Of a stretch of 64,000 nucleotides of DNA, positions 40,539 to 43,142 are shown in pieces. Below the pieces are notes generated by a model. The model worked only from the letters and a program-made list of their open reading frames with translations, was not told where the DNA came from and ran no database searches. How positions within the stretch are numbered: position 1 is the stretch's first letter; each line of letters opens with the position of its first letter. The translations under genes and the position numbers were made by a program. Location of the stretch: the NCBI RefSeq assembly GCF_029945685.1, contig NZ_JAQSDA010000012.1, forward strand, positions 62,001 to 126,000, read 5' to 3'. Source of the DNA: Polaromonas sp. GTDB lineage: Bacteria > Pseudomonadota > Gammaproteobacteria > Burkholderiales > Burkholderiaceae_C.

Positions 40539-41609
40539 ATGAAAATCGCAATTCTTCCCGGTGACGGCATCGGCACCGAAATCGTCGCCGAGGCCGTCAA
40601 GGTCCTTCAGGTACTGGACCTGAAACTGGAGATGGAAACTGCCCTGGTCGGCGGCGCCGCCTACGAAGCGCACGGCCATCCGCTGCCCGACGCCACGCTG
40701 AAACTCGCGCAGGCCTCGGACGCGGTGTTGTTCGGCGCCGTCGGCGACTGGAAATACGACAAGCTCGACCGCCCGCTGCGTCCCGAGCAGGCCATCCTGG
40801 GTCTGCGCAAGCACATGGGCCTGTTCGCCAACTTCCGCCCTGCCATCTGTTACCCGCAGCTGGTCGACGCTTCCAGCCTCAAGCGCGAGCTGGTGTCCGG
40901 CCTGGACATCCTGATCATCCGCGAGCTGACCGGCGACATCTACTTCGGCCAGCCGCGCGGCCGCCGCACGGCCACCGACGGCCACTTCCCCGGCGCCGAG
41001 GAAGCCTTCGACACCATGCGTTATTCGCGCCCCGAGATCGAACGCATCGCCCACGTCGCCTTCCAGGCGGCTCGCAAGCGCGGCAGCCGCGTGACCAGCG
41101 TGGACAAGGCCAATGTGCTGGAAACCTTCCAGTTCTGGAAAGACGTGGTCACCGAAGTCGGCTTGCAATACCCAGACGTGGCGCTGGACCACATGTATGT
41201 GGACAACGCCGCCATGCAGTTGGTCAAGGCGCCCAAGAAGTTCGACGTGGTGGTCACCGGCAACATGTTCGGCGACATCCTGTCCGACGCGGCCGCCATG
41301 CTGACCGGCAGCATCGGCATGTTGCCTTCGGCCAGCCTGAACACCAACAACCAGGGCCTGTACGAGCCCAGCCATGGCAGCGCGCCCGACATCGCCGGCC
41401 AGGGGGTCGCCAATCCGCTGGCCACGATTTTGAGCGCGGCCATGATGCTGCGGTTCAGCCTGAACCAGCCGGAAGCCGCCGCACGGATTGAAAAAGCCGT
41501 GGATGCAGTCTTGACGCAGGGCCTGCGCACGCCCGACATCTACAGCGACGGTACGACCAGGGTCGGCACGGTGCAGATGGGCGACGCGGTGGTCAAAGCC
41601 CTGAAATAA
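40539..41609 (+). CDS. leuB: 3-isopropylmalate dehydrogenase
   Basis: 356 aa. [20 protein letters not shown] at the N-terminus, [14 protein letters not shown] and [26 protein letters not shown] are family signatures. NAD-dependent oxidative decarboxylation to 2-ketoisocaproate. The ATG at 40539 matches the conserved N-terminus; upstream in-frame codons lie in the repeat. Confidence 0.97.
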
Positions 41610-41611
41610 GA

Positions 41612-41698
41612 CCCCCACGGTCGCGCACTTCGTGTCGCTCCCTGCCCCCCGAGGGGGCCGCTGCGCCTGCGGACTGGCGGAGCCAGATCCGCGGCCCA
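41612..41698 (+). repeat. GC-rich dispersed repeat, copy after leuB
   Basis: CCCCCACGGTCGCGCACTTC through CTGCCCCCCGAGGGGG to GATCCGCGGCCC. Begins three bases after the leuB stop. Confidence 0.85.
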
Positions 41699-41806
41699 GG
41701 CTGGTTTTGCGCCTCGTGTCTGAAGCAACTGACGTTTTTTTGCCGCAGAAGCTGGCCGCGCAGGCTGGTTTCGCGCAAGCGTCTGCCGCAACAAGGCCAG
41801 CCTGGT

Positions 41807-41812
41807 TAAAAT
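41807..41812 (+). promoter_or_regulatory. Candidate -10 element for the asd leader transcript
   Basis: TAAAAT seven bases before the leader ATG, which would put the transcript start on or next to the ATG and make the leader mRNA leaderless. No strong -35 is seen. Confidence 0.4.
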
Positions 41813-41818
41813 AGTCCC

Positions 41819-41923
41819 ATGCGTCAAAACCCCGCTGTCATCCGCCTCGTCGCCGCTTCGCGCGCGATGTGCGCTGCGCCGGTTTCGACCCAGACCACCA
41901 AAACGACCACCATTAAAGGCTAG
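41819..41923 (+). CDS. Threonine-rich leader peptide upstream of asd
   Basis: 34 codons ending 79 bases before asd. Codons 24-31 read Thr-Gln-Thr-Thr-Lys-Thr-Thr-Thr, that is six Thr codons (five ACC, one ACG) in eight, then Ile-Lys-Gly-stop. This is the design of attenuator leader peptides such as E. coli ThrL. asd acts in the pathway to Thr, Lys, Met and Ile, so stalling at Thr (and Ile/Lys) codons would report shortage of its end products. There is no Shine-Dalgarno, and a TAAAAT lies seven bases before the ATG, so translation from a leaderless transcript is suggested. Not experimentally shown here. Confidence 0.7.
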   Translation: MRQNPAVIRLVAASRAMCAAPVSTQTTKTTTIKG

Positions 41924-41999
41924 CAAGCCTGGTTCGTCGTGCCCTGCCGGCTCGATGAGCCGGGCCGAAAAGCTTCATTTTTGACTTTTTGAAGGGCGC
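41917..41999 (+). promoter_or_regulatory. Candidate attenuator between leader peptide and asd
   Basis: Segment 1 AGGCT (41917-41921) can pair with segment 2 AGCCT (41926-41930). Segment 2 with its following GG (41926-41932) can instead pair with segment 3 CCGGCT (41947-41952), with one bulge. Segment 3 CCGGCTC pairs perfectly with segment 4 GAGCCGG (41957-41963). Segment 1 overlaps the leader stop, so a ribosome stalled at the Thr codons would cover it and favour 2:3. The 3:4 stem is followed only after 14 bases by two T5 runs; CTTC (41973-41976) can also pair with GAAG of the asd ribosome-binding site, so control could be at termination or at translation. Confidence 0.5.
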
Positions 42000-42002
42000 A
42001 TC

Positions 42003-43142
42003 ATGAAACTCAAGGGCAATCTCACGGGACTCGTCGGCTGGCGCGGCATGGTCGGCTCGGTGCTGATCGACCGCATGCAGGCCGAAGGCGACTTCGACCT
42101 GATCGAGCCGGTCTTCTTTTCGACCTCCAATGCCGGCGGCAAGGCCCCGGCGCAGGCGAAGAACGAAACCACGCTGAAAGATGCGTTCGACATCGAGGCC
42201 CTGAAGAAGTGTGACGTCATCATCACCGCCCAGGGCGGCGACTACACCACCGAGGTCTACCCCAAGCTGCGTGCTGCCGGCTGGACCGGCCACTGGATCG
42301 ACGCCGCATCGACCCTGCGCATGAACGAAGACGCCATCATCGTGCTGGACCCGGTCAACCTGCCGGTGATCCAGAACGCGCTGGCCAAGGGCGGCAAGAA
42401 CTGGATCGGCGGAAACTGCACCGTCAGCTGCATGCTGATGGGCGTGGGCGCCCTGTACAAGGCAGGTCTCGTCGAATGGATGACCAGCATGACCTACCAG
42501 GCGGCCTCCGGCGGCGGTGCCCAACACATGCGTGAATTGCTGACCCAGTACGGCACACTCAATGCCGAAGTGCGTGCGCTGCTGGACGACCCGAAATCGG
42601 CCATTCTTGAAATCGACCGCCGCGTGCTGGCGAAACAGCAATCGCTGTCGTCTGCCGAAACCGCCAACTTCGGCGTGCCGCTGGGTGGTTCGCTGATCCC
42701 CTGGATCGACAAGGACCTCGGCAATGGCATGAGCAAGGAAGAATGGAAAGGCGGCGCCGAAACCAACAAGATCCTGGGTCAGGGCGCCAGCTTCGGCACG
42801 GCCGAAACCCCGGTGGACGGTTTCTGCGTGCGTATCGGCGCGATGCGCTGCCACAGCCAGGCGCTCACCTTCAAGCTCAAGAAAGACGTGCCGCTGGCCG
42901 ACATCGAAGCCATGATCGCCGCCGACAACGAGTGGGTGAAGGTGGTACCGAACACGCGCGAAGCCAGCATCACCGACCTGACACCGGTCGCTGTGACGGG
43001 CACCATGGGTATTCCGGTCGGCCGCCTGCGCAAGCTGGCCATGGGCCCCGACTACCTGGGCGCGTTCACCGTGGGCGACCAGCTCCTGTGGGGCGCCGCC
43101 GAGCCGCTGCGCCGCATGTTGCGCATTCTGCTGCAGGCCTGA
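42003..43142 (+). CDS. asd: Aspartate-semialdehyde dehydrogenase
   Basis: 379 aa. NADPH-dependent reduction of aspartyl phosphate to aspartate semialdehyde, the branch point to Lys, Met, Thr and cell-wall diaminopimelate. [13 protein letters not shown] binds the cofactor; the catalytic cysteine is in [12 protein letters not shown] (near residue 139). GAAGGGC lies before the ATG. Downstream of leuB and the Thr-rich leader; fimV follows. Confidence 0.97.

Follow-up and report, generated by a model that had tools for sequence, protein, structure and literature searches.

A putative translational attenuator of asd that reads threonine, isoleucine and lysine codons

Upstream of asd, the gene for aspartate-semialdehyde dehydrogenase, a 64,000-nucleotide stretch of Polaromonas DNA (the window) carries what is most likely a real amino-acid attenuator, acting on translation and reading threonine, isoleucine and lysine codons. 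Asd makes the intermediate for lysine, threonine, methionine and isoleucine, and on the comparative and folding evidence set out below we consider it probable that the element is a translational attenuator of asd which reads the supply of the pathway's end products. A more detailed proposal is one that we favor with rather less assurance: that a single translational attenuator serves three end products, with a shortage of any of them opening asd, that it uses LeuB as its leader in most members, that enzyme tail and leaderless peptide have been exchanged repeatedly, and that the element has been kept across Asd lineages. An earlier, sequence-only reading of this locus had suggested threonine-sensing control of asd by an attenuator with a short leader peptide. 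The threonine-rich leader and probable control of asd survive from that proposal, although the codon set has widened to threonine, isoleucine and lysine, all three of which occur in 119 of 122 regulatory tails. Its ribosome-position logic is likewise retained, with translation initiation as the likelier target in place of a terminator, which is not conserved. A separate peptide is the sensor in the window and in a minority of relatives, and the tail of LeuB takes this role elsewhere. The conservation of codons and stems was checked in relatives and holds, the Thr/Ile/Lys codons being frame-specific and the stems covarying.

The asd leader region in the window and its relatives

All features of the locus lie on the forward strand. 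The preceding gene, leuB (40539-41609; 356 codons), ends ordinarily in the window, with ...AVVKALK directly before its stop codon. A separate leader ORF of 34 codons (MRQNPAVIRLVAASRAMCAAPVSTQTTKTTTIKG; 41819-41923) lies between it and asd, the putative controlled gene (42003-43142), whose product has its closest named relatives in Polaromonas. The leader stop codon is 79 nt from the asd ATG at 42003, and six of the leader codons (24, 26, 27, 29, 30 and 31) specify threonine. The candidate regulatory run, codons 24-33 (T Q T T K T T T I K; 41888-41917), was delimited by the position profile and by a scan of A-site positions. The sequence-only reading had given the length of the frame, its six threonine codons within codons 24-31 and its distance from asd correctly, as it had the positions of AGGCT (41917), AGCCTGG (41926), CCGGCTC (41947) and GAGCCGG (41957).

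Segment 1 (41903-41921), the 5' arm of the 1:2 stem according to folding and a partner-swap test, overlaps the last threonine codons together with the Ile-Lys-Gly-stop codons, which supports the earlier suggestion that a ribosome on the regulatory codons would mask it. Segment 2 (GCCTGGTTCGTCG; 41927-41939) has segment 1 as its predicted partner in the OFF fold and segment 4 in the ON fold. The anti-SD arm GTGCCCT (41939-41945), identified from the fold, the swap test and the list of SD partners, is followed by segment 3 (CCGGCTC; 41947-41953), which was defined by the fold, the swap test and the count of paired cells in the alignment. Within segment 4 (CGATGAGCCGGGC; 41953-41965), positions 41957-41963 would pair with segment 3 and the whole of 41953-41965 with segment 2. 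An A/U-rich hairpin (41966-41991), taken from the fold and varying in sequence among genera, separates segment 4 from the asd SD region AGGGCGC (41993-41999), which in the OFF fold is paired with 41939-41945. The region from 41819 to 42003 folds better than its dinucleotide shuffles (z -2.3), with 5 of 200 shuffles as good.

A -10-like box, TAAAAT (41807-41812), stands 6 nt 5' of the leader ATG, and a TAnnnT box 6-9 nt before the start codon is found at 44 of the 49 separate leaders in the family, 37 of these 44 being 31-34 codons long. Such spacing is what would be expected if the transcript began at or next to the start codon, and from it we infer a leaderless start for the separate leaders. 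The earlier placement of the transcript start at the leader ATG therefore suits the spacing, and it is this spacing that points to 41819, a scan for two-hexamer promoters near the leader having found no site.

The element, consisting of an ORF end rich in Thr/Ile/Lys codons followed by the same kind of RNA, is deeply and widely conserved in the family. Our survey covered 200 genomes of the window's GTDB family, in 196 of which Asd was found; 149 upstream regions were fetched, and 148 were assessable, the window among them. L207 and L223 were set aside for upstream sequence that was too short. Under a codon rule of at least four Thr/Ile/Lys and at least two Thr in the last nine codons, the element precedes asd at 122 of the 148 loci and is missing from 26. 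These 122 comprise 49 separate leaders, including that of the window, and 73 LeuB tails, the latter class being defined by a residue pattern or an open frame of more than 340 codons, with L115, L139, L172 and L188 set as separate leaders by hand. Of 80 named asd loci, a set that overlaps the 148 and whose counts are not added to theirs, 66 are preceded at 73-126 nt by an ORF end rich in Thr/Ile/Lys. The RNA model strongly matches two of the 26 loci that fail the codon rule (L100 and L213), matches L107 in a displaced position and L148 weakly; at most of the others LeuB ends ordinarily. Of the 196 genomes with Asd, 46 fell outside the 149 places listed, and 31 of these together with G330 were examined separately. 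Twenty-eight further assessable loci, mostly with divergent Asd, include 22 with an RNA-model match at E<0.001, which in one case is partial.

Two loci of the survey differ in gene content. At L107 (795-884, minus strand) the element precedes an acetyltransferase-like ORF, recognised by eye, that separates it from asd, an arrangement resembling the insertion of a gene under the element's control. One asd match, G055:C123:1334-2494, was reported with a single internal TAA.

Alternative pairings and the level of control

In the model that we propose, a ribosome translating the leader, or leuB in most relatives, would cover the start of segment 2 on reaching the stop codon and then depart, after which the 1:2 and 3:4 stems would form and the anti-SD arm would pair with the asd SD, resulting in little asd translation. 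Were charged tRNA for threonine, isoleucine or lysine scarce, the ribosome would wait on roughly the last ten codons, masking segment 1. Segment 2 would then pair with segment 4 over 12-13 bp, shutting the anti-SD arm in the loop, and the SD would be left open for translation of asd. The stall, the freeing of the SD in vivo and the separate responses to the three amino acids are inferences of this model. On the predictions and the comparative data, the mutually exclusive sets are 2:4 on the one hand and 1:2, 3:4 and SD:anti-SD on the other.

The alignment evidence centers on the 2:4 helix. Given 49 aligned rows, RNAalifold chose it unprompted, with 95.7% of cells paired over its 12-13 bp and 24 cells changed on both sides, compared with 11.2 in shuffles. 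In the same alignment 3:4 is paired in 97% of cells and the SD helix in 72%, the rows being poorly aligned at the latter. Alternative folds that include 1:2 with 3:4 had been anticipated by the sequence-only reading and stand, as do pairings that exclude one another, 2:4 being incompatible with both 1:2 and 3:4. The 2:3 pairing that it had set against them is feasible in the window and was dropped, covariation and the alignment fold both giving 2:4 as the conserved alternative.

An alignment-free swap test, in which duplex energies of native and swapped partners were compared with the long-spacer loci L130, L132 and L161 left out, gave z values over all loci of -6.8 for 1:2, -4.9 for 2:4, -7.7 for 3:4 and -4.6 for anti-SD:SD. 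The corresponding values in separate leaders were -3.7, -6.5, -4.3 and a modest -1.9. In LeuB tails they were -2.4 for 1:2, -5.8 for 3:4 and -3.1 for anti-SD:SD, and native 2:4 partners were no better there than swapped ones (z -0.55, about -0.6). Two controls, segment 1 with segment 4 (-0.4) and segment 2 with the SD (-0.9), behaved as null; non-null values came from segment 1 with the SD (-2.9) and from the stretch separating segment 4 from the SD (-2.1), indicating that clade effects exist. The SD arms change together with their partners, as in TCGCCC/GGGCGA, GCGCC/GGCGC, GCGCCCT/AGGGCGT and ACGCCC/GGGCGT, in a list drawn from 108 of the 122 loci, the other 14 lacking the TCGT and GAGYC cores.

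Predicted folding in the window follows the position of the ribosome closely. The free fold contains 1:2, 3:4, the A/U hairpin and the pairing of 41939-41945 with the SD at 41993-41999, and with a ribosome masked on the last threonine codon a 13 bp 2:4 helix takes over. The probabilities of 2:4 and of the SD helix are 0.98 and 0.02 with the ribosome stalled there, and 0.00 and 0.99 with the ribosome at the stop codon; leaving the upstream RNA unmasked gives 0.76 for the SD helix at the stop. The stalled ON value is robust for assumed footprints of +10 to +18, and footprints of +9 and +19 gave no stalled ON fold in the window. When the A site was moved along the leader, 2:4 stood at 0.92-1.00 on codons -9 to -2, which cover the conserved Thr/Ile/Lys codons, and at 0.03 with the ribosome at the stop; the fold was likewise opened from codons -10 and -12. 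Averaged over separate leaders, 2:4 drops from 0.63-0.79 with the A site on codons -9 to -2 to 0.06 with it at the stop, and farther upstream, on codons -16 to -10, it averages 0.50-0.57; the predicted contrast is sharp toward the stop and modest upstream, and less sharp than in the window alone.

The ribosome mask itself blocks 2:4 at the stop, and the rise of the SD helix there is not built in. For 47 separate leaders the SD helix averages 0.32 stalled and 0.87 at the stop, and among changes of more than 0.2, 31 loci fall on stalling and none rises. With the stretch from stop to SD shuffled, the averages are 0.20 and 0.24, with 21 falling and 9 rising of 141. At 72 LeuB-tail loci the values are 0.54 and 0.64, with 15 falling and 7 rising; these sets and the A-site scan leave out spacers longer than about 130 nt. 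The modelled switch is thus clear in the window and across the separate leaders taken together, and weak in LeuB tails, where the mechanism consequently rests on homology and the swap tests. Plain SD accessibility had also been tried as a family-wide measure and proved inconsistent over the 122 loci (25 up, 20 down), so that probabilities of the named helices were used in its stead.

It is unlikely that the element works by classical transcription attenuation, in which the OFF fold (3:4, the closing helix or the A/U hairpin) would be a terminator and 2:4 an antiterminator. This alternative shares the leader logic, and when loops of up to 40 nt are allowed, terminator-like sites occur at 32 of 122 loci, 22 among the 49 separate leaders and 10 among the 73 tails, the rate in shuffles being 13%. 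Their excess in separate leaders makes partial termination possible in some genera, and a few loci (L099, L136, L172, L188, L184, L199 and L203) show a hairpin with a clear T run after it. However, short-loop terminators were found at 4 of 122 loci, not above the 5% in shuffles, and none in the window leader; the window appears in neither the short-loop nor the long-loop list. The longest T run is four or fewer at 86 of 122 loci, and covariation of the SD arm with its partner also counts against termination. Intrinsic termination was therefore ranked below control of translation as the main mechanism, and it is the lack of a conserved terminator, with no enrichment of short-loop sites, that leads us to the reading as a translational attenuator. 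A leader that governs Rho-dependent termination or mRNA decay through exposure of RNA before asd would dispense with a T run, but it would not predict covarying anti-SD:SD pairs, and we consider it improbable.

Three of the LeuB-tail loci, L184, L199 and L203, share an outer helix, CAAACCC/GGGTTTG, followed by T runs before the SD. From their sequence, these loci may terminate transcription.

Regulatory codons, sensor forms and Asd lineages

Threonine, isoleucine and lysine are all made downstream of Asd, and methionine is also a product of the pathway. The composition of the 122 tails is biased by the codon rule, and a fairer test is given by 129 places that the RNA model picks out at E<0.001, among them the 49 rows used to train the model, with the partial matches L130, L132 and L258 left out. 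At these places the last nine codons hold on average 7.16 Thr/Ile/Lys in the frame of the stop codon, compared with 0.15 and 1.02 for the remaining two frames, a conservation that excludes chance. The lowest place is L100, where the RNA is kept and just three of nine codons are of this kind. Threonine accounts for 41% of residues, lysine for 22%, isoleucine for 16% and methionine for less than 1%, so that methionine codons are hardly used in the regulatory tails although methionine is an end product of the Asd pathway.

The conserved residues lie right before the stop codon, as they would in a nascent arrest peptide sensing something besides charged tRNA. We nevertheless regard such a peptide as very improbable: the order of residues is not fixed, and at every position threonine, isoleucine and lysine interchange, in two protein contexts that are unrelated, which fits codon sensing better.

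The LeuB-tail form is the most surprising feature of the element, one in which an enzyme would have gained an extra C-terminal tail of regulatory codons; examples of such C termini are ...VVAAITKTITKG and ...VVAAITTTTKTIKS, each directly before the stop codon. LeuB tails spread over most of a LeuB tree of 131 rows (80 tail, 24 separate and 27 without either, the labels of the L232-L257 rows being set by hand), which requires 25 label changes. Its well-supported branches, obtained by a quick method without bootstrap, force at least three changes for the separate form. These changes suggest that the sensor forms switched more than once, and tail and separate leader have probably been swapped repeatedly, in a direction that the tree does not settle. 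Inspection by eye shows, in some separate leaders (e.g. L102 and L122), a small TGCCGCCCTGGCA-type inverted repeat in the middle of the ORF, possibly a pause hairpin.

At 21 loci the element is kept before an Asd that is 65-73% identical to that of the window, and at 16 of these, with at least 340 comparable LeuB residues, LeuB identity is 83-89%. Of these 21, 18 sit with L276, from another family, behind a 100/100 branch of an 87-row Asd tree, and the remaining three join two other families. These sequence relationships suggest that asd was displaced at its own locus two or more times or, alternatively, that old lineages of Asd were sorted; the element would have stayed either way. L238-L261 show a divergent asd behind a little-changed leuB and leader element. 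It is scarcely credible that neither the pairings nor the Thr-rich ORF plays any part in regulation, for although 26 of 148 loci lack the codon-defined element, the frame-specific codons, the covariation and the persistence of the element before asd of a different lineage all speak against it.

In other families of the order, inspection by eye of 17 Asd loci from 20 genomes found nothing similar at 16. The other, L267, has within 170 nt before asd a Thr-rich peptide end of its own, RTTTIITKTVMKG, and a matching CTTTCGTCCC/GGGACGAGGG pair, perhaps a parallel case of independent origin. An order-wide covariance search matched 9 of 300 genomes, and its strict filters missed known positives, so that it is uninformative on absence.

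Relation to known systems and significance

A close classical comparison is thrL of the E. coli thr operon, a leader rich in Thr and Ile codons that ends in an intrinsic terminator. Both have a Thr/Ile-rich leader ORF before a gene of the aspartate family, and in both the position of the ribosome would select the RNA fold; here, however, there is no conserved terminator, asd is the target, the leader has Lys codons as well, and the SD takes part in pairing. Measured against attenuators of the trp/thr type, the asd element has a leader with regulatory codons (at 73 of 122 loci leuB itself and not a short ORF) and mutually exclusive pairings, and lacks the terminator. Vitreschak and others (2004) reportedly surveyed attenuation in proteobacteria. 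In the open-access literature, titles and the starts of abstracts among the matches listed gave no such control of asd in this group.

Before leuA in Actinobacteria, a LEU element is described in which a run of Leu codons pairs with the SD, with a pseudoknot (PMC1262725). The two are alike in that regulatory codons lie in a candidate leader peptide and the SD of the controlled gene is part of a stem, and differ in that the asd element has 1:2, 3:4 and 2:4 and a separate anti-SD arm. Pairing of a codon run with the SD, of the LEU type, is absent in the window, where the predicted SD partner (41939-41945) lies 3' of the leader stop. In the alphaproteobacterium Sinorhizobium meliloti, trpL/rnTrpL is described as controlling trp genes by transcription attenuation with a 14-residue peptide, features that set it apart from the asd element (PMC7298713). 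The rnTrpL transcript starts at the ATG of the leader ORF (PMC7298713), to which the likeness on the asd side is the box spacing at 44 of 49 separate leaders. The erm translational attenuators offer a parallel, for in them stalling of the leader ribosome reportedly frees a downstream start from an inhibitory stem (PMC5118997). Their arrest depends on an antibiotic and not on codon starvation.

The asd RNA motif RF01732 of Lactobacillales (PMC2864571) has the gene name in common with our element, but the bacterial group differs and no Rfam match was found here. A search of 41000-43000 of the window with 4227 Rfam models at E up to 5 returned one chance miRNA match, inside asd on the other strand, and eight loci searched at the gathering threshold gave no matches.

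Asd seems to be controlled in this family by an RNA switch without an Rfam match. A ribosome-sensing tail on an intact enzyme would provide an attenuator within an operon that has no leader gene, and the switches between tail and leader would offer natural replicates of how attenuators arise. More broadly, where an enzyme has an odd C terminus rich in Thr and Lys, the explanation may lie in regulatory codons and not in protein function.
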